Assembly (NCBI GenBank): GCA_002898795.1 | Contig: BEIG01000025.1 | Span: forward strand, 1 to 34,879 | Length of the DNA: 34,879 nucleotides | Direction of reading: 5' to 3' | Source: a bacterium HR30 | GTDB lineage: Bacteria; Desulfobacterota; Binatia; HRBIN30 | Part shown: positions 8,456 through 31,204 of the stretch, piece after piece | How positions within the stretch are numbered: position 1 is the first letter of the stretch | Layout of the letters: each line of letters begins with the position of its first letter | Notes under the pieces: model-generated | The model's database searches: none | The model's input: only the letters and a program-made list of their open reading frames with translations | What the model was told of the DNA's origin: nothing | Translations under genes and position numbers: made by a program

Positions 8456-8479
8456 ACCGTAGGGAGTGCTGAAGCTTGT

Positions 8480-8525
8480 GGCGACGGGGGCGGCGCAACA
8501 CACCGTCCCCCGTCGCCGGTGTGTT
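8480..8525 (+). other. Strong stem-loop with an overlapping alternative hairpin
   Basis: An 11-bp perfect inverted repeat (GGCGACGGGGG at 8480-8490, its complement at 8507-8517) lies 25 nt after the dockerin-like gene stop and 93 nt before the KAS III-like start. A second, mutually exclusive pairing joins AACACACCG (8497-8505) to 8517-8525. No U-tract follows, so it is not a standard intrinsic terminator. It may stabilise the upstream mRNA end, weakly terminate transcription, or act in the leader of the next gene. Confidence 0.45.
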
Positions 8526-8609
8526 CCCGAGCCCGTTATACTGGTCGAAGCTTTGAACGCCGAGCTCTGCGCTCGCATCGACTCTGGCAACTCGCTAGGA
8601 AAGCACTCC

Positions 8610-9542: not shown

Positions 9543-9734
9543 CTCCTGCACCGTGACCTTTGTGCCGAGCCGGGCAAAAGGCTAGGCGAGTTGAAGGGCA
9601 CGCGGCGCGGCTACCGGTGACCATCATGCCTTTGGGGGGCGTGGCGAGCCCCAGAGCCTTGGTCTTGTAAGATAGCGCTGCTTGAAAAGGCCAGGAAATG
9701 GCTGGAGGCTCCAGCCTTGCACCCTGGGCAAGCG

Positions 9735-10155
9735 CAACTTTTCGGACTCGCACGGGCCTCCCCGTTACCAGCATGGAGCTGCCTGTCCCTTGCAAGCAGG
9801 GTTACCGTCGGAATGAGTGGCAGAAACGTCGCGATACTTTGATTGCCGGAACGGCCCGACGAACTGGTCGTGCTCACCCATGACCGCCGCGAACCGCGTT
9901 GGGTCGAGCGTCGCTCGAAGGCGGGCAAAGCCTCGATGTGATGCGCAATAGACAAGCTTCGGTCACGAGGATCAGCCGCGTTGGAGGGCACAACCGACAT
10001 GGACACTCATGCCACCGGGTGCGGCCCTTTCGACAACCGTTGCGCTACCAACGCGTTGAGAGGCAGCGTTCGGATCTGTGCCGCGAAAACGGCAGATCCG
10101 TCGCCGACAATCACGAGACCAAACTGCCGATCGTTCGGGAGCCGTTCGACGCGCA
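9735..10155 (-). pseudogene. merA: merA remnant (N-terminal part of mercuric reductase, frameshifted)
   Basis: In three minus-strand frames the sequence follows the start of the MerA catalytic core. QFGLVIVGDGSAVFAAQIRT matches the FAD-binding GGGSAAFAAAI region. ATVVERAAPGGMSVHVGC matches the redox motif GGTCVNVGC with the first Cys lost. HRGFARLRATLDPTRFAAV, then HDQFVGPFRQSKYRDV, then PTVTLL follow the next part of the family in order. Frameshifts separate these blocks. Roughly 130 of about 470 residues are recognisable. A possible further fragment (MMVTGSRAA) lies near 9610-9630, and the rest is absent. MerA reduces Hg(II) to Hg(0); this copy cannot do so. It lies directly after the merR remnant on the same strand. 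Confidence 0.72.
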
Positions 10156-10527
10156 GTGGCCGGCGCGGCCTTTGCGGGCACAGGAAGCCGGACGAAGACC
10201 AAGCGCACGCCTTCTGGTGCGGAAGGCTCGGATTTTGCGCTCGACCTCGGTGTTTTTCCTTCAGAAGCAGCATTGACCTCCGAACAGGCCCTCTCTTGGT
10301 CATCACGGAGCCGAAGCAGTCCGTCGATTTCGGTAAGCGCGACGCCGAGTTCTTGCGCGCGCTTCACGAAACGGCCGAGCGGAACCGCGCTGCCCCGTAC
10401 GCCTGGTAGGCAAAAAGCGCTCACAGAGTTGATCGAGGAGACCTTGGCGCTCGTCATCGTGGACAATTTGGATGTTCGTGCGCACCTCGGCAGCCGCCTG
10501 GCCGGTGCGGAGAGTTCCGCGCTCCAT
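10111..10527 (-). pseudogene. merR: merR remnant (mercury-type MerR regulator, two frameshifts)
   Basis: The 417 nt from an ATG at 10527 to a TGA at 10111 equal 139 codons, the usual MerR length, but the frame shifts about twice. Block 1 (TLRTGQAAAEV and ERQGLLDQ) resembles the MerR helix-turn-helix and wing with damaged residues. Block 2 (FVKRAQELGVALTEIDGLL, then RLRDDQERACSEV) matches the MerR dimer helix start and the first Hg-binding Cys. Block 3 (EVERKIRAF, then CARKGRAGHC) keeps the Cys-x8-Cys pair that MerR uses with the first Cys to bind Hg(II). MerR controls mer operons. Its end overlaps the merA remnant, as expected for a compact merR-merA pair. It is clearly non-functional as it stands. 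Confidence 0.78.
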
Positions 10528-10802
10528 CGTTTTTGCGATCGTCTCGTGATACACGTTGTACCATAAGTACCGAGTCAAGCGTGCCAGTTGGCGTCGCTGG
10601 AGCCTATGGGGAAAGCCACTGTTGGCCTCGCTGCGGGATCTTGCCGGAAAGCGGGGATGTCTCTACCGGGTAAACTGGAAGGAAAGAAGAGAGGGCGGAT
10701 AGGAGTTGGGCTGGAGACTTCTGAGGCAGAAACATTGCCCAGTGCGGGATCGAGCAACGAAGAAGAACTAAACCGAAGCGGGGTAAGTTAATGCAGCCAA
10801 AC

Positions 10803-10809
10803 GAGGAGG
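10803..10809 (+). promoter_or_regulatory. Ribosome binding site deciding the fabH start
   Basis: GAGGAGG ends 8 nt before the in-frame GTG at 10818. The upstream in-frame ATG at 10791 has only a weak G-rich sequence in front of it. The GTG start also gives the family-typical N-terminus MRRSHILGVGHCVPE. Confidence 0.7.
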
Positions 10810-10817
10810 TTCGAGTT

Positions 10818-11819
10818 GTGCGGCGGTCGCATATCCTTGGGGTAGGTCACTGCGTGCCAGAGCATGTGGTCACGAACCAAGATTTGACCCGCCTCATGGA
10901 TACGTCAGATGAGTGGATCCAACAACGCACGGGGATTCGCGAACGCCGATACAGCGATGGCTGTACTGGAGCGTCCGACATGGGGGCCGTTGCCGCTAAG
11001 GAAGCTTTGACACGCGCCGGCCTCGATGCAAGCGCGATTCAGTGTATCGTGTTTGCCACGTTAAGCCCCGATGTCGACATGCCCGCCAGCGCCTTCTTGT
11101 TACAAGAAAAACTTGGCATGTCCGGCATTCCTGCATTCGACGTCCGCAATCAGTGTAGCGGGTTCGTCTATTCGCTTGCCGTGGCCGACCAATTCGTCAA
11201 AACCGGCGCCTATGATTACGTGCTCGTGGTGGGCTCAGAGGTCCATTCCACCGGCTTGGACCTCAGCACGCGGGGACGCGATGTCGCGGTCATCTTTGGC
11301 GACGGTGCTGCAGCCGCAGTTGTGGGGCCGTCGCCCGATCCAGACCGAGGAATCCTTTCCACCCATCTGCATGCGGAAGGAAAGTACGCCGAGAAGCTCT
11401 GGGTCGAGGCGCCGGGCAGTCGGCTTCGACCGCGTTTGACGGAGGAAATGATCACGGGCCCAGATGGGCGGGTGTTCCCTCACATGGAGGGGCGTTACGT
11501 TTTCCGCCACGCGGTAGTCCGGCTCGCGGAGGTGATTCGCGAAGCGCTCGACGCCAACGGCGTGAGTGCCGCCGACCTCGATTTACTGATCCCCCACCAG
11601 GCCAACTTGCGGATCAACCAAATGGTTGCCGGCGAACTTGGGCTTCGCGACGAGCAGGTCGTCAACAACATCGACCGCTATGGCAACACCACCGCTGCTT
11701 CGATTCCGCTGGCATTGTACGAGGCATTGGAAACTGGTCGGCTGCAACCTGGAATGCTCGTCTGCCTGGCAGCGTTTGGCGCCGGCTTTACGTGGGGGAG
11801 TGCTCTCTTGCGGTGGTGA
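10818..11819 (+). CDS. fabH: Beta-ketoacyl-ACP synthase III
   Basis: A 333-aa FabH that starts type II fatty acid synthesis by condensing an acyl-CoA, usually acetyl-CoA, with malonyl-ACP in the cytoplasm. The catalytic triad is intact: Cys113 in NQCSGF, His260 in IPHQANLRI and Asn290 in RYGNTTAAS. The substrate-gate segment TSDEWIQQRTGIRERR (29-44) is also present. I prefer the GTG start at 10818 because of its strong ribosome binding site; an ATG at 10791 would add nine residues. It ends 3 nt before rimI, so the two are probably co-transcribed. No plsX, rpmF or fabD is adjacent, unlike many fabH loci. A second, divergent KAS III-like gene lies upstream across the mer remnant. Confidence 0.92.
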   Translation: MRRSHILGVGHCVPEHVVTNQDLTRLMDTSDEWIQQRTGIRERRYSDGCTGASDMGAVAAKEALTRAGLDASAIQCIVFATLSPDVDMPASAFLLQEKLGMSGIPAFDVRNQCSGFVYSLAVADQFVKTGAYDYVLVVGSEVHSTGLDLSTRGRDVAVIFGDGAAAAVVGPSPDPDRGILSTHLHAEGKYAEKLWVEAPGSRLRPRLTEEMITGPDGRVFPHMEGRYVFRHAVVRLAEVIREALDANGVSAADLDLLIPHQANLRINQMVAGELGLRDEQVVNNIDRYGNTTAASIPLALYEALETGRLQPGMLVCLAAFGAGFTWGSALLRW

Positions 11820-11822
11820 GCC

Positions 11823-12320
11823 ATGATTGAGACGAGCGAGCTGCGGCTCGAGCCCATGTGCGAGGATGACCTTGGTGCGGTCATCGAAATCGAGCGGCAG
11901 TCGTTTTCCGAGCCGTGGTCGGTGGGTCTGTTTCGGCACGAGCTGCGGCTGCCGTTTTCGAGATGCTTGGTGGCACGTGGCGACAACCGTGCCGTGGTGG
12001 GGTATGTTTGCTGGTGGTTGGTAGGCGACGAAGTGCATTTGCTGAACCTTGCTGTGCACCCACAGTACCGAAGGCGAGGCATCGGGCGGGCGTTGCTCGA
12101 GGTTGTTCTCGAGTCGGCTCGCCAGGCCGGGGCCAGGCTGGTGACCTTGGAAGTTCACCACGACAACGAAGCTGCGCAGGGATTGTACTCGGCCCATGGA
12201 TTCGTGCAAACCGGCCTACGCCGCAATTACTATGCGCCCGGAAGGCACGCCGTGGTCATGACTCGCTACTTTCCACGCGTGGAGAAACGCGAAGCCTCTC
12301 CGGCAAGGCGAGCAACTTGA
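11823..12320 (+). CDS. rimI: Ribosomal protein S18-alanine N-acetyltransferase (GNAT)
   Basis: A 165-aa GNAT acetyltransferase with the RimI pattern. SFSEPWSVGLFRHEL (28-41) is the substrate-binding region. HLLNLAVHPQYRRRGIGRAL (72-91) includes the acetyl-CoA pyrophosphate loop. The catalytic Glu110 is in TLEVHHDN and Tyr122 in LYSAHGF. RimI acetylates the N-terminal Ala of ribosomal protein S18 and may acetylate other proteins. The start ATG lies 3 nt after the fabH stop. The C-terminal about 12 residues (EKREASPARRAT) are a short charged tail beyond the usual domain. A gap of 106 nt separates it from argS. The GNAT assignment is certain; the exact substrate follows from family resemblance. 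Confidence 0.85.
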   Translation: MIETSELRLEPMCEDDLGAVIEIERQSFSEPWSVGLFRHELRLPFSRCLVARGDNRAVVGYVCWWLVGDEVHLLNLAVHPQYRRRGIGRALLEVVLESARQAGARLVTLEVHHDNEAAQGLYSAHGFVQTGLRRNYYAPGRHAVVMTRYFPRVEKREASPARRAT

Positions 12321-12426
12321 CTCGACTAGGCTTGCTGCGTATAGCGCGCGAGACCTGTTCGGCCCGCGCTGCCAAGGCAGGTCCCGTGAAACTGCCCGTC
12401 AGGCGGGTGCTCATTAGGGTACAAGG

Positions 12427-14073
12427 ATGAAAAAGCCGGTCGAAGCGGTATTGGAGCGTGCTTTGCGCGAAGCTCGACGCCAAGGTTTGCTGCAAAGCGA
12501 GCCTCCGCCAGCGGTGCTGGAGATTCCAAAAGATCCGGCATTGGGCGACCTGGCAACTCCTATTGCCTTGAGTTTGGCGCGGGCAGAACGCCAGGCGCCG
12601 CGGGCGGTAGCGGAGAAAATCCTGCGTTGCCTCGAAGATCCCGAGGGATTGTTTGTAGGGGTCGAAATCGCTGGCACGGGGTACATCAACTTTCGCCTGT
12701 CCCCACAGTTTTGGTCGCGATGTCTGGCGGAGATTGAATCCCCTTCGTTCGGGCCGAGTGCCTTTGGTTCTCAGCAGCGGGTGCTGGTAGAATTCGTTTC
12801 AGCAAACCCGACCGGACCGCTCACCGTCGGTCACGGGCGCAATGCCGTGCTGGGCGATGCGATTGCGCGATTGTTCGAAGCCACCGGGCATAGTGTGACT
12901 CGGGAATACTATTTCAACAATGCCGGGCGCCAAATGAAGCTGCTCGGGGAGTCGGTAAAAGCCCGGTACTTAGAGTTGCTGGGTGACCCGGTTGCGTTTC
13001 CTGAAGAAGGCTATCAGGGCGAATACATCCGCGAAATTGCCGCCGGGTTAGTCGGTGAACACGGAGACGCCCTCCGCAATGAGCCGGCGACGGGTGTGTT
13101 CAAAGAGGCGGCAGAAAAAGCCATCTTTGCGGATATCGATCGCACGCTGGAGCGGCTTGGAATTCGGTTCGATTCTTATTTCAACGAAGATTCGCTCTAC
13201 AAAGACGGGAGTATCGAACGAACGCTAGCAGACCTTCGCCAACTCGGACTCGCCTTCGAACGCGACGGTGCCGTGTGGTTGCACGGGAAAGCGGTAGGGC
13301 TGGATCAAGATCGGGTGCTCGTCAAGTCAACCGGTGAGCCCGCATACCGCCTTCCCGACATTGCCTACCATCGCCACAAGTTCGCTCGCGGGTTCGATCT
13401 ACTGGTAAACGTGCTCGGGGCGGATCACGTGGCCGAGCACGAAGACGTGCGGGCGGCGTTGCGGGCGTTGGGTTATGATGTCAGTCGGCTGCGGGTGATT
13501 TTGTACCAGTTTGTGACCCTGACCCGTGGGGGCGAGCAGGTGAAGATGTCCACGCGCCGCGCTGAGTATGTCACCTTGGACGAGCTCATTGACGAGGTTG
13601 GTCCCGATGCGGTGAGATTTTTCTTTCTCACGCGCAAGGCCGACAGTCATCTCGAGTTCGACCTGGAACTCGCGAAGCGGCAGTCAACCGAGAACCCTGT
13701 GTTTTACGTTCAGTATGCGCACGCGCGGGTGTGCAGCTTGATGAAACAGGCGGCTTCCTTAGGTGTCGTCCGGCCTCAGGCCAGCGATGCGCCACTGCAC
13801 TTGCTTACCGCTGCAGAGGAGGTTGCGGTGACGAAACTGCTGGCGTCGTACCCTGACATAGTGGAAGAGGCTGCCCGTTTTTGCGAGCCTCACCGAGTGG
13901 TGTTTTATTTGATCGACTTGGCCGGCGAGTTTCACCGTTTTTACAACCGGCACCGGGTGCTGACGGAGGATGCAGAACAGTCGCAGGCGCGGCTCTATCT
14001 TGTGTGGGCAGTGGGGAAGGTTGTGCGGTTGGGCTTGGAGTTGCTGGGCGTGCGCGCCCCGGAAGAGATGTAA
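12427..14073 (+). CDS. argS: Arginine--tRNA ligase
   Basis: A 548-aa class Ia aminoacyl-tRNA synthetase that charges tRNA-Arg. The N-terminal additional domain (about 1-110) is followed by the family stretch VEFVSANPTGPLTVGHGRN with the HIGH-like element VGHGR (about 134-138). The EYYFNNAGRQM element, the PAYRLPDIAYHRHK element and a KMSKS-like loop KMSTR (373-377) follow. The C-terminal anticodon-binding domain ends near LLGVRAPEEM. Length is normal for the family. The ATG at 12427 has only a weak AAGG before it. Its stop is 4 nt before the SPOR gene, so it probably opens the tightly packed part of the block. Confidence 0.97.
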   Translation: MKKPVEAVLERALREARRQGLLQSEPPPAVLEIPKDPALGDLATPIALSLARAERQAPRAVAEKILRCLEDPEGLFVGVEIAGTGYINFRLSPQFWSRCLAEIESPSFGPSAFGSQQRVLVEFVSANPTGPLTVGHGRNAVLGDAIARLFEATGHSVTREYYFNNAGRQMKLLGESVKARYLELLGDPVAFPEEGYQGEYIREIAAGLVGEHGDALRNEPATGVFKEAAEKAIFADIDRTLERLGIRFDSYFNEDSLYKDGSIERTLADLRQLGLAFERDGAVWLHGKAVGLDQDRVLVKSTGEPAYRLPDIAYHRHKFARGFDLLVNVLGADHVAEHEDVRAALRALGYDVSRLRVILYQFVTLTRGGEQVKMSTRRAEYVTLDELIDEVGPDAVRFFFLTRKADSHLEFDLELAKRQSTENPVFYVQYAHARVCSLMKQAASLGVVRPQASDAPLHLLTAAEEVAVTKLLASYPDIVEEAARFCEPHRVVFYLIDLAGEFHRFYNRHRVLTEDAEQSQARLYLVWAVGKVVRLGLELLGVRAPEEM

Positions 14074-14077
14074 GAGA

Positions 14078-14806
14078 ATGAAGTCGATTCGCCGCTCCCA
14101 ATCGGGTTTGACTTCGCTCCAGGTTGTTTTGTTGTTCCTGTTGTTTGCGGGCGCCTCTGTGCTGATTTTTCTATTCGGAATGTGGGTCGGACGCGACACC
14201 GCGGAGCGACGGCTACTGCGAGAGGAACGCGTTGTCCGGGCGCCGATTGTGAGGAGCACTCCGTCACCGGCGCGGGCCGAAGAACGGCCAGAAGAGGTTG
14301 TCGACCGCGCCTTTTACGAGCGACTTCGGCAAAAGGCGGCGGAACGGTTGGTGCAGGCGGCCCCTTCCGTGAACCCAGAGCCCTCAGTCGGCGTTGTCCC
14401 GGCCGCCACACCCACGCGCGCTGTGAGTCCTGGGGGGGTGACTTTTCTTCCGACTTACACTCCGATTTTGGTTCGTCCGACCGCGCGGCCCACCAACACG
14501 CCGCGGCCCCGAGCGACTCCGACCATGCAACCGCGGTTGCGGGGCGAGGCGGGGGACGCCTGGGCAGATGCCGGCTGGACGGTACAGGTCACCGCCACCA
14601 CCGATGTGACCGAGGCGCGTGCCTTGGTGCAGCGGTTACGGGCTCGCGGCTATGATGCGTACTTGGTGCAGGCTCCAAGCCGCGAAGGTGCCACCTGGTA
14701 TCGGGTGCGTGTGGGTCGTTTCGCTTCGCGAGAAGAGGCACGGCAATGGGAGGCGCGCCTCAAGGGCGAACTCGGGCTCTCCGGAGCATTTATCACGCCG
14801 CGCTGA
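14078..14806 (+). CDS. SPOR-domain membrane protein (DedD/FtsN-like)
   Basis: A 242-aa protein. A short basic N-terminus is followed by one transmembrane helix (about 14-38, LQVVLLFLLFAGASVLIFLF). A Pro/Thr/Arg-rich periplasmic linker follows, including RPTARPTNTPRPRATPT. A C-terminal SPOR domain (about 166-242) shows GWTVQVTATTD, LRARGYDAYLVQ, WYRVRVGRFASREEA and AFITPR. SPOR domains bind denuded septal peptidoglycan, so a role at the division site is likely. I chose the ATG at 14078, just after argS, because the longer open frame would run inside argS and would add no domain. It lies 11 nt before trpE, leaving no room for a trp leader or attenuator. Confidence 0.85.
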   Translation: MKSIRRSQSGLTSLQVVLLFLLFAGASVLIFLFGMWVGRDTAERRLLREERVVRAPIVRSTPSPARAEERPEEVVDRAFYERLRQKAAERLVQAAPSVNPEPSVGVVPAATPTRAVSPGGVTFLPTYTPILVRPTARPTNTPRPRATPTMQPRLRGEAGDAWADAGWTVQVTATTDVTEARALVQRLRARGYDAYLVQAPSREGATWYRVRVGRFASREEARQWEARLKGELGLSGAFITPR

Positions 14807-14817
14807 GGAAGGAGCCG

Positions 14818-16302
14818 ATGTTCGAGCCAGATTATGCCGAGTTTTGCTCCCTTGCGGCAAAAGGGAATCGAGTTGCCGTCATCCGCGAGATTCTTGCCGA
14901 CCTCGAGACCCCGGTGTCGGCATTCCTCAAACTGGATAAGGGCGGAGATGCCTTCTTGTTCGAAAGCGTCGAGGGACCAGAAAAGTGGGGGCGCTTTAGT
15001 TTTCTCGGCATTGAGCCGGCTGCGGTGCTCAGTGCAAAAGGAACGCAAACCACTCTGACATTCCGGGGCGAAGAGCCGCGGGTGATCGTAGGCGAGAATC
15101 CATTAAACGAGGCCCGGCGGGTTCTCAGGCAGTTGCAGACGGTATCGTCCCGCCCGCTCCCGAGGTTCGACGGGGGGTGGGTAGGCTACCTTGGCTATGA
15201 TCTTGTGCGGCACTTCGAACGCCTGCCGTCTCCACCTCGGGACGACCTGCACTTACCCGACGTGTACTTGATGCTCGTCGATACCTTCTTGGTCTTCGAC
15301 AACCTGAAGCACACGATCACTGCCGTAACTTATGCACCGACGGAAGGGCAAGCCCTCGATCAGAGCTACGCGGATGCATGTCGGCGCTTGCAGGGTTTGG
15401 TGGAGAGGCTGCGCCGCTCGGTGGACGCCCCGATCGAGTTTGGCGCAATGGAGCATTCGGCCGAGCTGCCTCGTGCCAACGTTTCCCGAGAACAGTACGA
15501 GGCCATGGTGCGCAAAGCGAATGACTACATCGTCGCGGGTGACATCATTCAGGTCGTGCTAGCTCAGCGCTTCGAGGGCGAGCTCCGCAGCGACCCGTTC
15601 CAGGTGTACCGCTGCTTGCGGAAGATCAACCCGGCACCGTACATGTTCTTCTTGCGCACGGGCGAAGCCACACTGGTGGGTTCTTCGCCGGAGGTCATGG
15701 TGCGCTTGGAAGGGCGGGAGGTGACCGTTCGCCCAATTGCCGGAACGCGCCCGCGAGGCACCGACGAGGTGTCGGACCGGGAGCTGGAAAACGAACTTCG
15801 CCAAGATGCGAAGGAGATCGCCGAACACATTATGCTGGTCGACCTCGGGCGCAACGACGTCGGCCGCGTGGCGGAGGTGGGGTCCGTCGAAGTGACCGAG
15901 TGCATGGTGGTGGAACGTTACTCCCACGTTATGCACTTGGTTTCCAACGTGCGCGGCACGTTAAAGCGGGGACTCGACGCCTTCGATGCTCTCGCAGCCA
16001 CATTTCCGGCGGGAACGCTTACCGGTGCACCGAAGATTCGAGCCATGGAAATCATCGACGAACTCGAACCTACGCAACGCGGCGTGTACGGGGGAGCCGT
16101 CGGCTATTTTGGTTTTTCCGGTAACATGGATACCTGCATCACCATCCGAACGATTTTGATCAACGGTGGGCGGTATTACGTCCAGGCTGGAGCTGGGATC
16201 GTGGCCGATTCGGTTCCTGAGCGCGAGCATCAGGAATGCGTAAACAAGGCGCGCGCTGCGTTGCAGGCCATTCGCCTGGCAGAGAGGCTCGGACGCGACT
16301 AA
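14818..16302 (+). CDS. trpE: Anthranilate synthase component I
   Basis: A 494-aa chorismate-utilising enzyme that makes anthranilate with TrpG, the first step of tryptophan synthesis. The N-terminal domain has [19 protein letters not shown], which contains the E-S element tied to tryptophan feedback binding. The catalytic domain shows [59 protein letters not shown] and [19 protein letters not shown], all in family order. The ATG at 14818 has a strong GGAAGGAG ribosome binding site; the longer frame from 14746 lies in the SPOR gene. It is followed after 16 nt by trpG. The subunits are separate, not fused as in some lineages. Confidence 0.96.
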
Positions 16303-21375: not shown

Positions 21376-22692
21376 ATGATCGCCGCAACGTACTCGGAGC
21401 TGCTCGACTGGTTGTACGGGCTAGAGGCCCGCAAAGGCATGGATTTCAAGCTCGAGCGAATCGAGCTGGTATTGCAGGAACTTGGCCGCCCGGAACGAAA
21501 GTACCCGATCGTTCACATTGCTGGCACCAACGGTAAAGGCTCTGTCGCGGCGATGCTTCACGCCATGGCCTGTGGAGCAGGGCTGGAGGCGGGCCTTTAC
21601 ACCTCTCCCCATCTCATCCGCTTTACCGAGCGCATTCGAGTTGGCAACGATGAGATCTCGCCGGAGGACGTGGTCAGGGGGGCACGTGAGGTTCACCGTG
21701 CGGCCACCTTACGTGGGATCGAGCTCACCTTTTTTGAATTCACCACCGTGCTGGCCTTTCAGTATTTTGCGCAGCGAAAAGTTCCCCTGGCGGTGATCGA
21801 GACGGGGCTCGGGGGCCGCCTCGATGCCACCAACGTAGTGCTGCCGCAAGTGTGCGTGATTACGAGTATTGGCTTTGATCACCAAGAATTCCTTGGCAAC
21901 TCGCTCGCCTCGATTGCCTCGGAAAAGGCCGGGATCATCAAACATGGTGTTCCCGTAGTCGCGGGCGCGCTGCCGCCCGAGGCGAGGGCAGTGATCGACT
22001 CCCGTGCTCGGTCGCAAAACGCACCGGTGTGGTGGGCGCACAGTGACTTTACGTGGTGGGGAAATGATCAGTGTTGGTCGTTCCGCGGCCCTCGAGGAGA
22101 ACTGGGCAACGTTCGGCTAGGGCTGCGTGGGGCTCATCAGTGCGAGAATGCCGCTGTTGCCCTAGCAACCGCACAGGTCCTCTCCGACGGCCTGAAGTGG
22201 TCGGAGGAAGTGTGGCGGTGGGGCTTGGAGAATGTGCGATGGCCGGGGCGGCTGGAAGTGTTGACGGAGAGGCCGTTGGTGATTCTCGACGGCGCGCACA
22301 ACGTGGACGGCGTGCGGGCGCTGGTCGCAGCGCTGCCGCACTTATTAGGGCAGCGCCGCGTGCATTTGCTCTTCGGCGTCATGAGCGACAAGGACTGGCC
22401 GGCCATGGTCGACATTCTGGCTCCTTACGTGCAATCTGCGGTTGTGACCCGCCCTTGGCCTCAGCGGAGCGCAGACCCCGCGCGCCTGGCCGAGCGGTGG
22501 CGCGCTTGGGTACCCACGCGGATCGAAGACGACCCCGCGGTTGCCTTCGAGCAGATCGTGAATGCGCTTCGGGAGGACGAGGTCCTGTTGGTTGCTGGCT
22601 CCCTGTTTCTTGTCGGACAGGTGCGAGCGGCGTTCTTCCGTCACGAAGGCGGACGGGAGAGTACCTCGAGGATTGCCCGTGCCGACGTTTGA
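21376..22692 (+). CDS. folC: Folylpolyglutamate synthase / dihydrofolate synthase
   Basis: A 438-aa Mur-ligase-family enzyme that adds glutamate to folates and probably also to dihydropteroate. The ATP-binding loop is HIAGTNGKGS (47-56). The family strings YTSPHLIRFTERIRV, FFEFTTVLAFQYF, ETGLGGRLDATNVV, SIGFDHQEFLG, SEKAGIIK and LDGAHNVDG are all present. It begins at the ATG at 21376, 18 nt after trpA. Its end overlaps lptD by 14 nt. Downstream linkage to trp genes is known in several proteobacteria, usually with accD between trpA and folC; that gene is missing here. Confidence 0.95.
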   Translation: MIAATYSELLDWLYGLEARKGMDFKLERIELVLQELGRPERKYPIVHIAGTNGKGSVAAMLHAMACGAGLEAGLYTSPHLIRFTERIRVGNDEISPEDVVRGAREVHRAATLRGIELTFFEFTTVLAFQYFAQRKVPLAVIETGLGGRLDATNVVLPQVCVITSIGFDHQEFLGNSLASIASEKAGIIKHGVPVVAGALPPEARAVIDSRARSQNAPVWWAHSDFTWWGNDQCWSFRGPRGELGNVRLGLRGAHQCENAAVALATAQVLSDGLKWSEEVWRWGLENVRWPGRLEVLTERPLVILDGAHNVDGVRALVAALPHLLGQRRVHLLFGVMSDKDWPAMVDILAPYVQSAVVTRPWPQRSADPARLAERWRAWVPTRIEDDPAVAFEQIVNALREDEVLLVAGSLFLVGQVRAAFFRHEGGRESTSRIARADV

Positions 22693-24928
22693 TCGGTGGA
22701 GCCCGCTTGTTTTCCTCGGGCTGGTGGTCATCCCCGCTCTGACACTTTTTACCGTGCGTGCGGCGCACTCTTTGACGGGCGAGTTGCCGGCTGGCTTGCC
22801 GGTGCAAGTCGAGGCAGACACGTTAGCGTACGACCGCGACCGCGATGTGGTGACGGCCGAAGGACACGTGGTCGTGCGGTACGGGGAAATCGAAGTACGC
22901 GCCGCGCGCGTCGTTGTGGAACGCACCACTTCCGTGGTGCACGCAGAGGGCGACGTTCACGTCGACAGCCCTGAAGGCGTGCTTTTTGCCGATCGGGCCC
23001 GCATCGACCTAGAACAAGAAGTGGGCGAGTTAAAAGGTGCGGCGCTGCGTTCCCGGAAATTGCAGTACTCGTTGTGGGGAAGTTCGATCGAAAAGTTTGG
23101 TGGTCAGCGTTACCGCATCATCAATGGCCGTTTCACCACTTGTAACTGCGAAGAGGGTCGGCAGAGTTGGAGCATCACCGCCAAACACCTCGATGTTACG
23201 GTGGAGGGTTACGGCGTCGCACGAGGAGCAACGTTCAATGTCCTTGACGTTCCCGTCCTGTACCTGCCCCGCATTGCCTTCCCGGTACAGCGTGAACGAC
23301 AAAGCGGCTTTTTGATGCCGCGTTTTGGTGCGTCGAACCAGCGCGGGTTTCAGACCGTGGTTCCGTTTTATTGGGCGATCGACCCCAGTCGCGAGGCAAC
23401 GTTTGGGCTGGACCTGGAGACCGGAGCCCGCATAGGCCTGCTGGGAGAGTACAACTACCGAGCCAGTCTGGACGATCGAGGAACGGTAGCACTTTCCTAT
23501 TTCAACGAGTTTTTGCGGGCGGACCGCGTGCGCGGGTCAACGATCGTCCCGCAAGACCGGTGGAGCGTCTTTACCGCCTTGGATCATCGTCTGGGGCAGT
23601 CCGCGCAACTCTACGCCGATGGGAAACTGGTCAGTGACGATCAGTTTTTTCGTGAAATCAACACGTACTCTTTTGAGCGCGGGCGTACGGTGTTGCTGCG
23701 AACCCTGCCTTATACCACTTCGCGTGTTGGTGGGATCTACGTCTTCCCTCGCTCTCTTTTGGCTTTTGATGCGGCCTATTTTCAGGACCTTACGGACCCG
23801 CTCGAGTCCCGGACTGTGCAGACGGTACCGCGCGTGTGGTGGGGTGGTCAGTTGCCGGTGCAAAGGTGGCTGCTCGCAGATTGGTCAGCAGAATGGGCCC
23901 AGTTCGAGCGGGGGCAGGGACCAGCGGGGGCGCGACTGCTGGCGCAGCCGCGGGTGGTTGCAACCGTGCCGCTCGCCCCTTGGGGGTATGGTTTGGCTTC
24001 TATCCGGTTTTGGCAGAATGCCTACGCGCTGCATCGCACAGAGCCGCTGGCCGCTCCCGGAGTTACCCGGAAATTGCCAGCTGCGTCGCATCGCGAACAG
24101 GTAGAGGTGCGGGTCGAAGCTGGAAGTACTCTGCAAAGAGTGTACGATTTTCCTTATTGGGGAATGGACCGCGTGAAGCATACCCTCGAGCCAGTGGCCC
24201 AGTACTACTACGTGCCGTCGGTGAGCCAGGAAAGTCTCCCGTTTTTCGACGCCTTGGATCGGGTGAACCGACGCAACGTTCTCGCGTTTGGGGTTGTCAG
24301 TCGGCTGATCGGTCGTTTTCCGTCGGTGGGCCGCCAAGATGGGAGTGCGACAGCAGGGGGAACGACGCGTGAACTAGCACGTGTGTCCCTGCTGCAGGCC
24401 TACGATGTGAGCCGAGTCGTTCAGCCGCTGACGGAGCGACTTTCGGAAAGTCACTTGTCCGACCTCGATATTTTAGGGCGGGTAAACCCGAGTCGGCTTC
24501 TGTCTTTCCGCTTCGCGGGTACGTTGGATACGAAGGCCACCGAGTTTAGTTCAACGAACGTGGGAGTGTTTCTCGAGGACCCACGCGAAGTTGACAGTGC
24601 GGCAGGGCGCCGATTGGGCACGCGCACGAGTATGGGGGTGGCTTACCGCTTATTGGCAAACAATGTGCTCCAGCAAATTGACGCCAACTTTGTGCTGCGG
24701 CTCACCGACTGGGCCGGGGTGTCGTATGCGACGCGCTACAACGTGCCCGCAAGTCGTTTTCTAGAAAATTACTTCGGCTTGCGTTTTGTCTCCCTTTGCG
24801 ACTGTTGGTCTGTCGACGTGGCGCTGTCGAACCGTACCAACCCGAACGAGACAGAAGCGCGGCTACAGTTGACTTTGGTTGGTCTTTCGAGCGTTCGGCA
24901 AGCCTCGCGCGTTGCAGTTGCTCCCTAG
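22679..24928 (+). CDS. lptD: LPS-assembly outer-membrane protein LptD
   Basis: A 749-aa outer-membrane beta-barrel that inserts lipopolysaccharide into the outer leaflet together with LptE. An N-terminal hydrophobic signal segment (about 8-30) precedes an OstA/LptA-like jelly roll (about 42-150: VQVEADTLAYDRD, VTAEGHVVVRYGE, VHAEGDVHVDSPEG). The rest follows LptD, including VLYLPRIAFPVQRERQSGFLMPRFG. Two CxC pairs, Cys155/157 (TCNCEEG) and Cys707/709 (LCDCWSVD), probably form the interdomain disulfides. The GTG at 22679 has GAGGA 6 nt upstream and gives a signal peptide; the longer frame lies in folC. It is the last gene of the block. Confidence 0.92.
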   Translation: MPTFDRWSPLVFLGLVVIPALTLFTVRAAHSLTGELPAGLPVQVEADTLAYDRDRDVVTAEGHVVVRYGEIEVRAARVVVERTTSVVHAEGDVHVDSPEGVLFADRARIDLEQEVGELKGAALRSRKLQYSLWGSSIEKFGGQRYRIINGRFTTCNCEEGRQSWSITAKHLDVTVEGYGVARGATFNVLDVPVLYLPRIAFPVQRERQSGFLMPRFGASNQRGFQTVVPFYWAIDPSREATFGLDLETGARIGLLGEYNYRASLDDRGTVALSYFNEFLRADRVRGSTIVPQDRWSVFTALDHRLGQSAQLYADGKLVSDDQFFREINTYSFERGRTVLLRTLPYTTSRVGGIYVFPRSLLAFDAAYFQDLTDPLESRTVQTVPRVWWGGQLPVQRWLLADWSAEWAQFERGQGPAGARLLAQPRVVATVPLAPWGYGLASIRFWQNAYALHRTEPLAAPGVTRKLPAASHREQVEVRVEAGSTLQRVYDFPYWGMDRVKHTLEPVAQYYYVPSVSQESLPFFDALDRVNRRNVLAFGVVSRLIGRFPSVGRQDGSATAGGTTRELARVSLLQAYDVSRVVQPLTERLSESHLSDLDILGRVNPSRLLSFRFAGTLDTKATEFSSTNVGVFLEDPREVDSAAGRRLGTRTSMGVAYRLLANNVLQQIDANFVLRLTDWAGVSYATRYNVPASRFLENYFGLRFVSLCDCWSVDVALSNRTNPNETEARLQLTLVGLSSVRQASRVAVAP

Positions 24929-25524: not shown

Positions 25525-26574
25525 TTAAAAGCTGCTCGGCAGTACGATAACGTCTCCTTGCAGGGCCCCGCCGATGAAATGTGGCTTTAGGGCGGTGCTT
25601 TGGCCGTTCCCAAGGGACTCTTCGGCGATCAAAATCACCCCGGTTCCTACCCCCACCGAGCGCGTAGGCACCGGACGGATTCGAGTCTGGCCTACGATGG
25701 TCCCTTGCATGGCAAAATGAAAAACGGAACGAGTTGGATCGGGCCGACTATCGACCCAGGTAAGGGGCAGGTCAGCAAAGCACGTCACTTGGAGACTGGC
25801 CGAAAGCCGCTGTTCGAACTCATTGAAGGTATCGAACGCCAGGCTTGTCGTGGTAGGGACGGCGCGGTCGAAGTCAGCACTGCAAGGCACGAACGTGACC
25901 GTGGTACTTACGGGGCTGCCGGTGACGGGGTCTGGTGCTTGGTCGTAATAGTGGTTCAGCAACAAAATCCGCGGGCAAGCGCTGTACTCTCGATCATCCA
26001 ACGCAAGAACGGTATCGCGATTGTTTCCACCCATCGAGCGCAGGGTGAACGCAGGGTATTTGCGCAGTGAGCCGCCGGCACGGTCGATCACGGTTGCTTC
26101 ACCCGTGAGCGCATTCTTGGAGCTAGGCACCTCGCCTTCGTCAATGACGACGCAACGGAGTTCTCCCAGAAACCCTTGTGCGAGCGGGGGAACAAGCCCG
26201 GGGTGAAGGTCTTCTGGCCGGCCATCCGAAGGACGAGGCCCGAGGCCGGTGCTCGCAACCCAAACTGTGGGCTGCTGGCGAGTGAGGGAGATTTGGAAGT
26301 CGACCACCTGCCAAAGGGGCTCACCGGTATTGGGATTTGGTGCGGCATTCACGTACAAACAGAGCAAAGAGATTCTCACACCAGTTGTGTTGGTGAGCTG
26401 AATAATCGTGTCACGATTGGCATCGTGGACGACCTTGGGAAACCACACAATTGCCCCAGGCTGGTCCGTGCTGATTTCCGCTTGTGTGACGGCGCCCAAG
26501 GAAAGGCAAGCGAGGGCAGCAACGCAAAAGACAACGGTACTTTGAGCACGGATCTTTGGCGTGGCGCTTAGCAT
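25525..26574 (-). CDS. Secreted protein of unknown family, paralog A (349 aa)
   Basis: A 349-aa protein with a signal peptide (about 1-32, cleavage near VTQA/EI). I do not recognise the family, but it is clearly homologous to the two upstream proteins. Shared blocks in order are: AIVWFPKVVHD, DTIIQLTNTTG, LCLYVNAAP, LTRQQPTVW, GFLGELRCVVID, GEATV, the ACPRILLLNHYYD block, VPCSADFD, FNEFEQRLSAS, GQTRIRPVP and VILIAEESL. Beta-rich composition and a few conserved Cys suggest an extracellular, disulfide-stabilised beta fold. The ATG at 26574 has a TAGGAG ribosome binding site 7 nt upstream. It is separated from paralog B by an intrinsic terminator and so probably has its own promoter. Confidence 0.82.
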   Translation of the reverse strand: MLSATPKIRAQSTVVFCVAALACLSLGAVTQAEISTDQPGAIVWFPKVVHDANRDTIIQLTNTTGVRISLLCLYVNAAPNPNTGEPLWQVVDFQISLTRQQPTVWVASTGLGPRPSDGRPEDLHPGLVPPLAQGFLGELRCVVIDEGEVPSSKNALTGEATVIDRAGGSLRKYPAFTLRSMGGNNRDTVLALDDREYSACPRILLLNHYYDQAPDPVTGSPVSTTVTFVPCSADFDRAVPTTTSLAFDTFNEFEQRLSASLQVTCFADLPLTWVDSRPDPTRSVFHFAMQGTIVGQTRIRPVPTRSVGVGTGVILIAEESLGNGQSTALKPHFIGGALQGDVIVLPSSF

Positions 26575-26669
26575 GGGGCACTCCTAGCGAACTTTGGGGA
26601 GAGAACGAAGCCCAGGGAAGCCGGCAGATCAACTTGACGGGCGACGGCAGTCGCCTTCGCGGACGCTGA

Positions 26670-26712
26670 AAACAGCAAACAAAAAGGGCAGAAGCACAGT
26701 GCTTCTGCCCTT
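26670..26712 (-). terminator. Intrinsic terminator downstream of paralog B
   Basis: A 14-bp perfect inverted repeat (AAGGGCAGAAGCAC at 26684-26697, its complement at 26699-26712) ends 24 nt after the paralog B stop. Read on the minus strand, the hairpin is followed by TTTTTGTTTGC, a good U-tract. It should end the paralog C-B transcript before paralog A. A smaller hairpin (GGCGAC/GTCGCC, 26640-26655) lies just beyond. Confidence 0.88.
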
Positions 26713-26735
26713 CGAACCCACAGGAACGCCGTGAC

Positions 26736-27977
26736 TTACTGATTCGGGCTCAAGAAAATGAAGTCGGAACGATCGCGACTACCAGTAAAGTGGACATTCT
26801 CTGCGCTACTGTTGACGGCGCCCTCCCTACCCCCGGCCAAGAAGCGCTCTGCGACGACCATAATGCCATTCGCACGGTCGGCCTGCTGAACGGACCGAAT
26901 TCGGGTCTGCCCACTCAATGTGCCCTGGACCCCCACGCTAAAGATGGAAAACGCGTTATCCGCTCCACCGGGTCGCGTGTCGATGTCCGACAGTTGGACT
27001 TCGCGGAAGCAGGTAAACCGTGTCGAACTCGAGAACCGCTGTTCGAACTCGTTGAAGATCAAGAACTGCAGTGTTGCCCCACCGAGGTTGTTTTCCTGGA
27101 GCAGGAAGTCCTCACTACATGGCACCACGGTGATGTCCGTCGTCGCTGTTCGCGACACTCCCGGACTGCCTCCAGAGAAATGCGACTGGATCACGGCACC
27201 GTCGAAGAAATGGTTCAAAATCCAAACGTTCGGGCAACCGTCGTACTCCGCGTCTGGGCCACCGAGAACCAGGGTGTCGTCTTGGTTGTTCACAGTGGTC
27301 GACTTCAGAGTGATGGCATTGTACTTCCGCGCGTCCACGTCAGGCGCATCAGCGGGCAGTGCAGATACGATAGTCGCGTGGCCGGCTAGGTCACCCGCGG
27401 CATTGTTGGCGGGGTTGAAGCCAATGGTTGGCCGGTAATCCTCAGGGTTGACCTGAATACACTTAAGCTCGCCGATAAACGGATCCTCCGGCACCGGTGG
27501 GATAGATGAGTCGGCATTGGTTTGACCACCAGGGCCCTGGTTACCGCCAGTAAGTGGAAAGACGGTCAAGCCATCGGCCGCACTGAACGAAATGGGTTGT
27601 CTTTTCGTAAGTCGGAAGCGGAAATCGGTTTCCGTCCAACCCTCCAAACAGCGACCTCCTTCGGGGCAACGGCTGGACGCTGTTTCTGGGGTGCAGGCTA
27701 CGTCGGGTGCGTTGCTACAATGCCCCGTCGCGTTGACCCAGTAACAGCGCGCAGCAATGATGGAATTTGAGGTGTTCGTAATCTGAATTTCCGTATCTGT
27801 CGGGCGGCCGAACAGTACGCCACTCGTATCCACCACTACCTTCGGGAACACCAAAATCGCCCCCGAACTGTCGGAGCCAATCGTGGCGCCCGCGATCCCC
27901 GGGATCCACAAGCTTGCTACGCCAAGGGCCAAACCCCACAGCGCCCTGCTGAGCTTTTTTGCCGTCATGGTGCTCAT
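26736..27977 (-). CDS. Secreted protein of unknown family, paralog B (413 aa)
   Basis: A 413-aa protein with a signal peptide (about 1-31, cleavage near AGA/TI). It shares with paralogs A and C the blocks AILVFPKVVVD, TEIQITNTSN, CYWVNATG, LTKRQPISF, FIGELKCIQVN, GHATIV, YNAITLKST, GCPNVWILNHFFDG, VVPCSEDF, LQFLIFNEFEQRFSSS, GQTRIRSV and IMVVAERFL. It has an extra cysteine-rich insert after the first Cys (HCSNAPDVACT to RCPEGGRC), like other cysteine-rich proteins in this window. Function is unknown. The ATG at 27977 is preferred to the longer frame because AGGAAAGGAG lies just upstream and the signal peptide then starts normally. It is 48 nt from paralog C, so the two probably form an operon. 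Confidence 0.82.
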   Translation of the reverse strand: MSTMTAKKLSRALWGLALGVASLWIPGIAGATIGSDSSGAILVFPKVVVDTSGVLFGRPTDTEIQITNTSNSIIAARCYWVNATGHCSNAPDVACTPETASSRCPEGGRCLEGWTETDFRFRLTKRQPISFSAADGLTVFPLTGGNQGPGGQTNADSSIPPVPEDPFIGELKCIQVNPEDYRPTIGFNPANNAAGDLAGHATIVSALPADAPDVDARKYNAITLKSTTVNNQDDTLVLGGPDAEYDGCPNVWILNHFFDGAVIQSHFSGGSPGVSRTATTDITVVPCSEDFLLQENNLGGATLQFLIFNEFEQRFSSSTRFTCFREVQLSDIDTRPGGADNAFSIFSVGVQGTLSGQTRIRSVQQADRANGIMVVAERFLAGGREGAVNSSAENVHFTGSRDRSDFIFLSPNQ

Positions 27978-28025
27978 CACGTCGTCTCCTTTCCTCACCA
28001 CCTGCTGATGGCCCTTCATGACGCT

Positions 28026-29189
28026 CTACTCGACCGGCACCGAGATTACGTCGGTCGCATTGGGCGAGGGCAGCGGGTCGTCATTCTCACCCTGTGTCGC
28101 GCCATCGTATCGGTTTCCTTGGACGTACGGATTGTACGCTGCCCACGCAGTTACGTTCGGAACGGACGTCCAACGCAGCTCTTCGGCGACCATCAGCACA
28201 CCGCCTTGTCCGGGTACGGGCCGGAAGCGCGTGTGTCGAGTGGTCGACCCGCCGAGCGCCCCCGGGGTGAATGCTGCCGACAGTTGCCCCAAGGGTGCTG
28301 TCATCCAGCAATTTACGGAAAAGCTACCGCTTAACCGAGCTTCAAATTCATCCCACGTGAGAAATTGCAACGTAACCGTCGTGGTCCGCCCGTTCTCGAA
28401 ATCTTGGGTGCAAGGAACCACAGTCAAGAACGTTTCCACCGGGCAGTTATTTCCAGCGCACAACCCAACGGGCCCGAGAGAAGTTGCGGAAGAAAGAGAA
28501 AGCTGTGGGGTACCATGAGCAAAGTGATTCAGAATGGTTGTGTCCGGACAGGCTGCGTACTCGCCACCAGGGTTGGCGTCGGTCAGTGTGAGTTCCAGGT
28601 CCGCTCCTGGCAGCACTTGCGTATTTGCCGGCAGGGCAATGGCATTGTAGGTCGCCACATCGCCATCGTTTCGCTGGATGGTTGCTTCGCCTTTCAGTCG
28701 GTTTCCTGGCCAGGGTTGCCCGGTTTCATCCACTTGCACGCACTTAAGTTCGCCTCTGAAACCGGTCGGCACCGGGGGGATTAAGCCGGGGTCAAAGCCC
28801 GAGCCGTAGGCACCAAACGGACTGGTGTGATCCACACGCCGCCCTGCGCTCGCGACCCACATGGTGGGTTGTTGCCTTGTCAAAACTAGCTCGAAGTCGG
28901 TCACCGACCAAAGCGGTGGGTTGGTCGGCCCAGGTGGCAGATTCGGGTTTACCGGAGCGCCATTCACGTAAAAACAATGTACGAAGGCTAAGCTGTTGCC
29001 TGTGTTGGAAAGCTGAATGATGGTATCCCGCGTGCCATCCCAAACGACCTTGGGGTATACCACCACAGAGCCGCTGATTTCTGTCGTGACACTCCGAATT
29101 TCTTGGCTGAGCCCTGTGCTAGCCCAGGCAAGTAGGCCAAGAGCGGAAAGCCCCAGCGTCCTCAAGCCCCAAAACCGCTTCTTCTGCAT
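28026..29189 (-). CDS. Secreted protein of unknown family, paralog C (387 aa)
   Basis: A 387-aa protein with a signal peptide (about 1-29, cleavage near LSQ/EI). Shared family blocks are SVVVYPKVVWD, DTIIQLSNTGN, CFYVNGAP, LTRQQPTMW, PPVPTGFRGELKCVQVD, GEATI, YNAIALP, ACPDTTILNHFAHG, VVPCTQDFENGRTTTVTLQF, WDEFEARLSGS and VLMVAEEL. It lacks the complete GQTRIRPV block of the others but keeps TRFRPVP. I chose the ATG at 29189, which has AAGGAG 8 nt upstream; the long frame from 29297 would hide the signal peptide behind about 36 residues. It is probably the first gene of the C-B operon, with a candidate promoter at 29323-29351. Function is unknown. Confidence 0.82.
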   Translation of the reverse strand: MQKKRFWGLRTLGLSALGLLAWASTGLSQEIRSVTTEISGSVVVYPKVVWDGTRDTIIQLSNTGNSLAFVHCFYVNGAPVNPNLPPGPTNPPLWSVTDFELVLTRQQPTMWVASAGRRVDHTSPFGAYGSGFDPGLIPPVPTGFRGELKCVQVDETGQPWPGNRLKGEATIQRNDGDVATYNAIALPANTQVLPGADLELTLTDANPGGEYAACPDTTILNHFAHGTPQLSLSSATSLGPVGLCAGNNCPVETFLTVVPCTQDFENGRTTTVTLQFLTWDEFEARLSGSFSVNCWMTAPLGQLSAAFTPGALGGSTTRHTRFRPVPGQGGVLMVAEELRWTSVPNVTAWAAYNPYVQGNRYDGATQGENDDPLPSPNATDVISVPVE

Positions 29190-29542: not shown

Positions 29543-31204
29543 ATGAGGAAAGTGGATTGGTTTTTGTCTGTTGCGTGCGGCATGTCGCTGACGATCTTTC
29601 TAGCAGGTTGTCCGGCTCGAAAACCTACGGCCGTGAAGGAAGTCCCTCGGGTCACCGGAAAGATCCCCCAGTACACCCCAGCTCGAGCCGGGTTACCGAT
29701 GACGAAGATCTGGAAGAGCCAAATTGCCTTCGGGGATATCAATAACGACGGCTTTGCCGACCTGGGTGCTGTATCCCGGCTGGCTGATGGACCGTGGATT
29801 TGGGCAGGCGACGGCAAGGGAGGATGGACCGACGCGTCTTCCGGCCTTCCGCGAGAGTCCTTTTGTGGTGGGGGGATGGATTTTGGCGACGTGAATCGCG
29901 ACGGAAAAATCGATGTCGCGATTGCGGACCACTGCAAGGGCGTTTTTGTTTTCCTGGGCGATGGTGCGGGGCGGTGGGTGTCGGCCTCGGCTGGCTTACC
30001 GACCGTGGGATGCGAAGACGTGGCTTTTGGGGACTTCAACAAAGATGGCTGCCTCGACCTGGTCACCGTAGCTGCCTCGGAGGAAGGAGTGAGAGCGTTT
30101 ACGGGCAACTGCAAAGGCGTGTGGCGCGAAAGTTCTACCGGCCTTGCGCAAAGTGAATGGGGTAACTCCGTCACGGTGGCAGACATGAATGGCGACGGTA
30201 ACCCCGACGTAGTGGCTGCCTATGCGGCGGGCCCGCGCGTGTGGTTGGGCGACGGGAAGGGCAATTGGCAGGAAGCCTCGGCTGGCATGCCGGCCCCCGA
30301 GGTCCACGGCCTGTACTGGGGTATCGCGGTTGGAGATATCAATGGCGACGGACGCTTGGATGTGGTGGCTACGGACCAGTCCCGCGGGCCCCAGGTCTTT
30401 TTGCAAACGGAGGCGGGTGGCTACGTGGCCACCGATTCCCGGCAGTGCATCGGAGGTGCGAACGACGGACTTTTTTGCATGTCATCTGCTGATTGCCCCG
30501 GAGGCTCGTGCGCCACGCACGTATGCAAGGGTGTGTGCGTGAAAGGTGCACGCGGGAATTCTTGCTTTACCGACGATGACTGCGAAGATCCGAGCCCCCC
30601 GCGCCCTGGCCGGGAACCCGAGGAACCGAAGTGCGACTTACCGAAGAATGTGGGTCAGCAGTGCAACGCCGAAGGCAACCCGGCCCAATGTGTGCCCGGA
30701 GTTTGCGCGCCCGTTCAAAATGGCCATGGCTTACCTCTCATGAACGCTTTGGGGGTGGCCGTCGGAGATCTGAACAACGACGGTAAGGCGGACCTTGTGG
30801 TCGCGGGCAAAACGAACACCCGAGAAATAGGCGGGGTGTACGGAGTGTTTGCCTTTCTGGGTGATGGCAAAGGGAACTTTACGTTGATTCCTGCCTCGGC
30901 AGGGCTGCCACACGATGGCCGCGAACGCACGTGGGGAGTGGGCCTAGCGGACATCGACCGTGACGGCGTGCTCGACATCGGAGTTGCTTTCGGGGACGTG
31001 TTGCCGCCCTCGTTCCGCTCGGGTGACTTGAGGCCAAAGGCAACGAAGAAGCAGCCAAAGGAACGGGGCTGGTTCTCTCGCTTGTTTGGGGGCAAGGCCT
31101 CTGACCAGTCGCAGTCACCAACCGCGTCGACTTCCGAGGCCCCGAAGCCACCGGAGCGGGGTCATTTCGGCTCGATTGAAGTTTGGCGCGGCTCGCTACC
31201 TTAA
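29543..31204 (+). CDS. Lipoprotein with seven FG-GAP/VCBS repeats (predicted beta-propeller)
   Basis: A 553-aa lipoprotein with lipobox IFLAGC (Cys23). Seven calcium-loop motifs of the DxNxDGxxD type mark FG-GAP repeats, starting at residues 65, 116, 164, 214, 265, 409 and 470. This is the count of a seven-bladed, integrin-like propeller. Between repeats five and six there is an insert (about 296-396) with many Cys (302-388), containing CIGGANDGLFC and CPGGSC. The tail (about 490-553) is Lys/Pro/Ser-rich. It is probably anchored on the envelope surface or in the periplasm; the ligand is unknown. An AGGAG ribosome binding site lies 8 nt before the ATG at 29543. It is divergent from the paralog C-B operon, with 353 nt between starts. 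Confidence 0.85.
   Translation: MRKVDWFLSVACGMSLTIFLAGCPARKPTAVKEVPRVTGKIPQYTPARAGLPMTKIWKSQIAFGDINNDGFADLGAVSRLADGPWIWAGDGKGGWTDASSGLPRESFCGGGMDFGDVNRDGKIDVAIADHCKGVFVFLGDGAGRWVSASAGLPTVGCEDVAFGDFNKDGCLDLVTVAASEEGVRAFTGNCKGVWRESSTGLAQSEWGNSVTVADMNGDGNPDVVAAYAAGPRVWLGDGKGNWQEASAGMPAPEVHGLYWGIAVGDINGDGRLDVVATDQSRGPQVFLQTEAGGYVATDSRQCIGGANDGLFCMSSADCPGGSCATHVCKGVCVKGARGNSCFTDDDCEDPSPPRPGREPEEPKCDLPKNVGQQCNAEGNPAQCVPGVCAPVQNGHGLPLMNALGVAVGDLNNDGKADLVVAGKTNTREIGGVYGVFAFLGDGKGNFTLIPASAGLPHDGRERTWGVGLADIDRDGVLDIGVAFGDVLPPSFRSGDLRPKATKKQPKERGWFSRLFGGKASDQSQSPTASTSEAPKPPERGHFGSIEVWRGSLP

Follow-up and report, generated by a model that had tools for sequence, protein, structure and literature searches.

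Three neighbouring genes on a contig of bacterium HR30 (GenBank assembly GCA_002898795.1, contig BEIG01000025.1; GTDB lineage Bacteria; Desulfobacterota; Binatia; HRBIN30) encode secreted paralogs, here termed A, B and C, of a large family whose genes fall into two types arranged in a strict I-II order across the host order, linked at this chromosomal place to an orthologous gene for an FG-GAP β-propeller lipoprotein and held under strong purifying selection. The window analysed is this entire contig (34,879 nucleotides out of a genome of 3.73 Mb). The explanation that we find best, and to which we give about an even chance, is that types I and II of the family join outside the cytoplasm as heteromers which, together with the propeller, bind a glycan or small ligand. 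By this model A, B and C would each consist of two tandem β-sandwich domains of the ASRAH fold, and C (type I) and B (type II) would be made from one message and assemble with each other, so that two chains of two domains would supply four ASRAH domains, the count found in the TM1070 homotetramer. The complex would act in the periplasm or on the cell surface, where it would bind a glycan or other small polar ligand jointly with the propeller lipoprotein encoded divergently beside C. The other I-II pairs of the genome would be the same device with other ligands, and A a shortened descendant of type II.

The three proteins are related over a series of common blocks in identical order, the identity of A being 38% with B and 42% with C. 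As the sequence-only reading had claimed, these blocks are shared throughout, albeit with variations (FPKVV/YPKVV, IQLTNT/IQITNT/IQLSNT, LTRQQP/LTKRQP, GELKC/GELRC, LNHF/LNHY, VPCxxDF, NEFEQR/DEFEAR, GQTRIRP/GQTRIRS/RHTRFRP). A profile of A, B and C retrieves relatives in other genomes with E-values down to 3.7e-165, far past chance. Inspection of the N-termini likewise bears out secretion (basic start, hydrophobic core and A-x-A-like ends in all three), and a simple pattern found no lipobox in any of them. The open frame of B spans 26736-28019 (427 aa), with a better start at 27977 (413 aa) preceded by a GGAGA-type ribosome site, which leaves a gap of 48 bases between C and B. A terminator-like hairpin lies between B and A, so that C and B may form one transcript and A a separate unit, although hairpins of this kind number 2 in the region as compared with 5.5 in shuffled sequence.

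When 58 paralogs from seven genomes were placed in a tree, they separated into two halves, one with C (type I) and the other with B and A (type II). In a more careful tree the split received a support of 97/97 and was found in 96% of bootstrap trees; with distant members as an outgroup, type II forms one clade and type I may be paraphyletic (the fragment L056_G007_S4_9791 was left out of both analyses). Labelling the tips by chromosomal place requires 10 changes, as compared with 31 for shuffled labels and 44 for genome labels (the place labels of L104 and L105 rest on their genes and propeller rather than on wider synteny). This grouping suggests old copies that have for the most part been inherited at fixed positions, in support of the old duplication and specialisation proposed earlier.

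The order of the two types is strict across the host order. When genes of held-out loci (some of which share genomes with the profile-building loci) were typed by profile, adjacent genes ran I>II in 62 cases, II>I in 22, II>II in 6 and I>I in one; the corresponding counts for the tree loci were 26, 9, 6 and one. Both I>I cases (L053 and L056) are overlapping fragments. Excluding L053, a run of eight overlapping and apparently broken family open frames (7515-15378, G007), which was also omitted from the shuffle test and spacing counts, 61 of 133 held-out genes are of type I; 59 of these are followed by a type II gene, two lie at a contig end and none precedes another type I (one call, for L164, has a margin of only +4 bits in a gene cut by the contig start). 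In 20,000 shuffles the mean number of I>II junctions was 21 and the maximum 33, against the 59 observed. The median spacing, with starts picked by a score, is 49.5 nt for I>II (82 junctions, tree loci included), 71 nt for II>I (29) and 160 nt for II>II (10).

Comparison within the genus showed 84-93% identity for C, for B and for the members of two further clusters, and 72-80% for A. The respective pN/pS ratios, which are rough as synonymous sites are near saturation, were 0.07-0.14 and 0.20-0.24, as compared with 0.16-0.21 for LptD, 0.23-0.31 for FolC and 0.10-0.12 for the propeller. A role in antigenic variation, as a fast-changing surface antigen, was considered and thought unlikely given these low ratios.

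The propeller gene beside C matches PF13517 (FG-GAP_3) in seven stretches with 152.1 bits (cut-off 26.9), and every one of the 13 loci of this place that have sufficient flanking sequence, all from different genomes, carries its ortholog divergent to the type I gene. Of these, five (the window, L045, L048, L052 and L057) were assigned to the place from their flanking genes, two (L104 and L105) from the tree and six (L134, L140, L145, L148, L156 and L159) from best hits of their own genes; the G005 counterpart (L131) is cut by a contig end, and none was seen in G014. The link extends to distant genomes. All six FG-GAP_3 matches of G090 (E<=1e-5) fall in the gene directly after its family gene, and the best hit of this propeller in G000, G007 and G012 is the propeller of the present place (E 1e-64 to 1e-70; next 2e-19). 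A gene located one gene away from a family gene holds 4 of 5 FG-GAP_3 matches in G504, 5 of 6 in G522 and 6 of 8 in G531, the rest being elsewhere (one further FG-GAP gene each in G504 and G522). In these three genomes a run of four genes encodes a family protein, a secreted protein of ~265 aa (with a DUF4440 match below cut-off in two of the three), a propeller and a DsbA-like protein, whose SurA-N-like stretch is above the Pfam cut-off in G522 only. The family proteins of the run carry nine Cys after residue 30, the small protein none or one and the propeller four to six, and a DsbA-like gene at the end of the run would be fitting for a disulfide-rich client. Overall, the propeller-lipoprotein neighbourhood noticed in the window proved to be a real and old link.

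Profile searches of Pfam, NCBIfam, PHROGs and the PDB gave no significant match for the family, so that the earlier statement of no known domain stands at the level of sequence, and no known characterised domain was found across these proteins by profile. The statement does not stand for the predicted fold of A, the protein for which the suggested structure prediction was run. The AlphaFold2 model of mature A (from an input of 13 sequences from the window or related loci) is mostly β, with pLDDT 83.5 and pTM 0.84. Its residues 6-148 align with TM1070 (1nc7) in VIA-align 2 at Z 12.6 and 1.9 Å over 106 residues (of a chain of 116), the runner-up row having Z 6.2. Domain 2 modelled alone (pLDDT 71.2, pTM 0.70) also has 1nc7 as its best match (Z 9.6, 4.0 Å, 111 residues), followed by four entries of the Anabaena sensory rhodopsin transducer (ASRT) at Z 6.7-6.8 and by unrelated rows from 5.4 down. 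The typical best Z for models with no clear match is 7 to 8, according to the tool's own note. Foldseek assigned 1nc7 a probability of 1.00 for both domains. The modelled match to the eight-stranded sandwich of TM1070 is thus clear for domain 1 and moderate for domain 2, and the stronger argument is that both domains point to one small fold family. A is accordingly predicted to comprise two tandem ASRAH-fold domains, and we infer the same fold for B and C. Two sets of structural hits were set aside as noise, namely the twelve best Foldseek rows for the full-length model (transglutaminases and others; TM <0.2, rmsd >=19) and similar matches in a viral library. RbmA-type biofilm scaffolds have a tandem fibronectin-III-like fold, and RbmA entries reached Z 4.0-4.3 for domain 1, within the range of common arrangements.

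Conservation was counted over 123 aligned members as a percentage of ungapped rows. N62, which ends strand 2 of the A model, is conserved at 96%, and D55 (93%) and T56 (100%) lie on the same strand, at the place of the TM1070 cleft residue H25 and the next one when our register is set on the strand-2 Asn. In ASRAH proteins strand 2 is described as ending in an almost invariant Asn (PMC2739507), and together with the near-invariant D55/T56 this Asn favours a true kinship. Five Cys (C72, C141, C200, C231 and C265) are present in 116-120 of 123 rows; we would guess that their odd number leaves room for an inter-chain bond. Each Cys of a further four-Cys loop occurs in 25-27 of 27 type II and 3-7 of 26 type I proteins; it is missing from all five members of the branch of A (IIa), which keep the common Cys and lack the loop. 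Short Cys-rich stretches of the C..C..DCPGGSC type were also observed in the propeller lipoprotein (30446-30511) and in a secreted protein at 7148-8452 (stretch 7340-7393), which has weak dockerin/EF-hand matches; the same simple Cys pattern matches 10 of 64 family members.

ASRAH domains were predicted in 2009 as sugar binders (De Souza, Iyer and Aravind; PMC2739507). According to the same source, TM1070 is a tetramer with a cleft partly walled by the dimer interface, secreted ASRAH proteins are dyads or tetrads, and other ASRAH families carry their own residues on the ligand strand; the two predicted domains of A correspond to the dyad form. The closest counterpart in that account is a third ASRAH family, of actinobacterial secreted lipoproteins, which resembles ours in secretion, in two tandem domains (predicted for A) and in the strand-2 Asn of domain 1. 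It differs in that A-C are devoid of a lipobox and of detectable sequence similarity to ASRT, and form I-II pairs in many copies; the WhiB, glycosyltransferase and zincin neighbours that the source gives for it were not noticed at these loci. With TM1070 and ASRT themselves (1nc7, 2ii7; PF07100) both domains of A share the predicted fold. However, these are described as single-domain, intracellular and tetrameric proteins with an SHEshChhN strand (PMC2739507), while the present family has D-T-x-x-x-x-x-N and is secreted, double and Cys-rich. A possible bridge between the two is provided by tandem PF07100 proteins (L082-L087) from the same class, which likewise have two ASRT-type domains in one frame and, in G004 and G040, a lipobox-like Cys ahead of them; unlike the present family they pass the Pfam cut-off, and G033 and G040 have no family member. 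The partner gene is an FG-GAP_3 propeller protein by its Pfam score, and differs from generic proteins of this kind in being a specific ortholog tied to the family. Our literature searches on ASRAH, TM1070 and Binatota/Binatia found no description of this family, and none of the papers found combined Binatota with FG-GAP.

The family is much larger than the three-member cluster initially perceived. With A as a query, 18 matching pieces were found in five clusters of its own genome, in which 15 open frames were counted, giving about 15 members, two of them very divergent. The family was detected in all 15 genomes examined from the source's order, which gave 11-27 matching pieces apiece (this is not a gene count). 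At the level of the class, 18 of 148 genomes had matches, namely these 15 and G018, G090 and G098 (3 of 133 outside the order). Four of 395 genomes match in a sample of the phylum (two of the source's order, G504 and G522), to which a broader profile adds one weak match (G417), and 4 of 39 match in the order of G504. The search extended to one phylum, and a wider occurrence is possible. The single family gene of G098 is convergent beside LptD (L079), as is the cluster in the window. Overall, the proposed profile search for copy number and neighbours revealed a large family at recurrent loci with a link to the propeller. A tblastn search with B gave no match among 72,556 plasmid or 50,697 phage records, and a distant member gave none in the plasmid collection; a mobile origin was thought unlikely in view of this and of the recurring syntenic places of the clusters.

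Several further features were observed at the other clusters. Two very divergent members (L044, 7361-8290 and 8299-9840, G000:C21; ~100 bits), one of them with a Pro/Ser/Thr-rich stretch, lie outside the four main clusters. Large open frames of 883, 932 and 778 aa (L042 4931-7579, L047 12839-15634 and L060 2508-4841) lie near the fourth cluster in three genomes and are tied to the family by weak BLAST similarity only; the L042 frame, the one of the three that was scanned, has no Pfam or NCBIfam match. The third cluster (L043, 8746-11807) lies near a UDP-sugar dehydrogenase gene and a gene whose product has a MYXO-CTERM tail just short of the cut-off (19.4 versus 20 bits).

Coordinates of the family genes, their partner genes and related features (positions are those of the window unless another locus or contig is named).
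Feature	Position	Strand	Basis and remarks
LptD, syntenic marker, convergent with the cluster	22562..24928	+	Pfam PF04453
Paralog A	25525..26574	-	ORF; 349 aa, secreted, type II branch (IIa) by tree
A, predicted domain 2	25564..25983	-	Second ASRAH-type β-sandwich; AlphaFold2 of the domain alone and structure match
A, predicted domain 1 (mature residues 6-148)	26035..26463	-	ASRAH-type β-sandwich; AlphaFold2 and structure match
Terminator-like hairpin between B and A	26683..26713	-	14-pair stem, then TTGTTTG tail; consensus match only
Paralog B	26736..27977	-	ORF and start choice, tree, type profile; type II, 413 aa, secreted
Four-Cys loop in B domain 1, typical of type II	27648..27719	-	Coordinates counted from protein
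Paralog C	28026..29189	-	ORF, tree, type profile; type I, 387 aa, secreted, leads the I-II pair
FG-GAP β-propeller lipoprotein, divergent partner gene	29543..31204	+	PF13517, 6.1e-45; LAGC lipobox
Four-gene run, distant lineage	L077 10426-15691		
Four-gene run, distant lineage	L078 1947-7070		
Four-gene run, distant lineage	L097 689-6075		
Tandem PF07100 protein	G004:C97 14592-15203		Two domains over Pfam cut-off
Tandem PF07100 protein	G033:C38 2716-3321		Two domains over Pfam cut-off
Tandem PF07100 protein	G040:C44 60616-61266		Two domains over Pfam cut-off

A number of results weigh against the proposed ligand-binding heteromers. Pfam PF07100 does not match the family, and hhalign of each family half (up to 120 rows) against 10 ASRT sequences (two PDB stretches, six plasmid genes and two from G369), or 14 with four tandem-ASRT domains added, gave a probability of 0.1%, the reversed controls for domain 1 being higher (5.5% and 1.5%). 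No sequence similarity was detectable between domains 1 and 2, and no internal repeat was found. The SHEshChhN signature is absent, D-T replacing H-E and the place of C29 not being conserved; no conserved Trp appears in strand 1 of the family alignment, and domain 2 has Pro-Cys at the place of the strand-2 Asn. With no support from sequence profiles, what we claim is the fold and a likely similar way of working, not membership in PF07100. The protein modelled is A, a derived branch, alone of the three. Moreover, ASRT is reported to loop DNA (PMC8660804), so that sugar binding does not follow from the fold itself.

The genomic evidence also has its exceptions. Orthologous loci and pairs are not independent, and we estimate the distinct clusters behind the pairing at about four to seven. 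Lone type II genes (L138, L143, L150 and L151) and II-II runs (L141 and L163) occur, L138 and L163 being near contig ends, and show that type II, including A, can stand with no type I of its own. The 18 FG-GAP_3 matches of G549 all lie at least about 21 kb from its family genes, G098 has no FG-GAP_3 match at E<=1e-8, and the stretches read around the other clusters of the order contain no propeller save at L055, at about 6 kb, the sole other strong match in the 72 loci searched. Finally, the client of the DsbA-like factor may be the propeller as well as the family protein.

These points can be set against three other explanations. The resemblance to ASRAH might reflect convergence on a common sandwich topology, with neither shared ancestry nor a shared mode of binding, as the silence of the sequence comparisons on ASRT kinship and the moderate model of domain 2 (pLDDT 71) would allow. 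We consider this somewhat unlikely, given that both domains of A single out the same small fold family, that the five best rows of domain 2 are the very five TM1070/ASRT entries found by a PDB sequence search, and that ASRAH proteins and domain 1 have the strand-2 Asn in common. The main rival concerns function: the proteins might be ligand-free bricks of a surface layer or envelope matrix, with types I and II alternating, disulfides holding the structure together and the propeller lipoprotein acting as anchor. A high copy number, the I-II alternation, strong purifying selection, the many Cys (five common to all types and four more in type II) and the proximity of a DsbA-like gene in three distant genomes are all compatible with such a matrix. 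On the other hand, G504, G522, G090, G098 and G549 make do with one or two genes, the pairs of different loci are ancient and have diverged, as would suit different partners better than one lattice, and no S-layer match was seen in the Pfam and NCBIfam scans, which makes a structural matrix unlikely in our view.

The gene order itself might be a relic of an ancestral I-II pair copied as a block, the proteins now working singly as homo-oligomers. The grouping of genes by chromosomal place (10 changes versus 31 shuffled) agrees with this, and so does the existence of A and of lone type II genes. However, excluding L053, all 59 held-out type I genes away from contig ends still precede a type II gene, even though the genes have diverged to roughly 35-75% identity by best hits and type II genes are also seen singly or in runs. 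We regard a relic as unlikely.

The fixed I-II order, combined with a constraint tighter than that on FolC and LptD (A excepted), points to an important role outside the cytoplasm. A more far-reaching version of the ligand-binding heteromer model, which we put forward tentatively, is that of a new extracytoplasmic recognition system: obligate I+II double-ASRAH heteromers would be displayed with a dedicated propeller lipoprotein, multiplied in one order into a fixed set of some six or more complexes, each with a specificity of its own, at conserved loci. Another lineage would have an older arrangement of four genes, those for the family protein, the small secreted protein, the propeller and the DsbA-like folding factor. 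The analysis provides a predicted fold, partner and assembly rule for a large family that is named in none of the libraries searched and whose hosts are bacteria described as yet-uncultured in a 2021 title (PMC8262859). If ligands are indeed bound, the use of ASRAH domains would be extended to a many-membered set of outer receptors.

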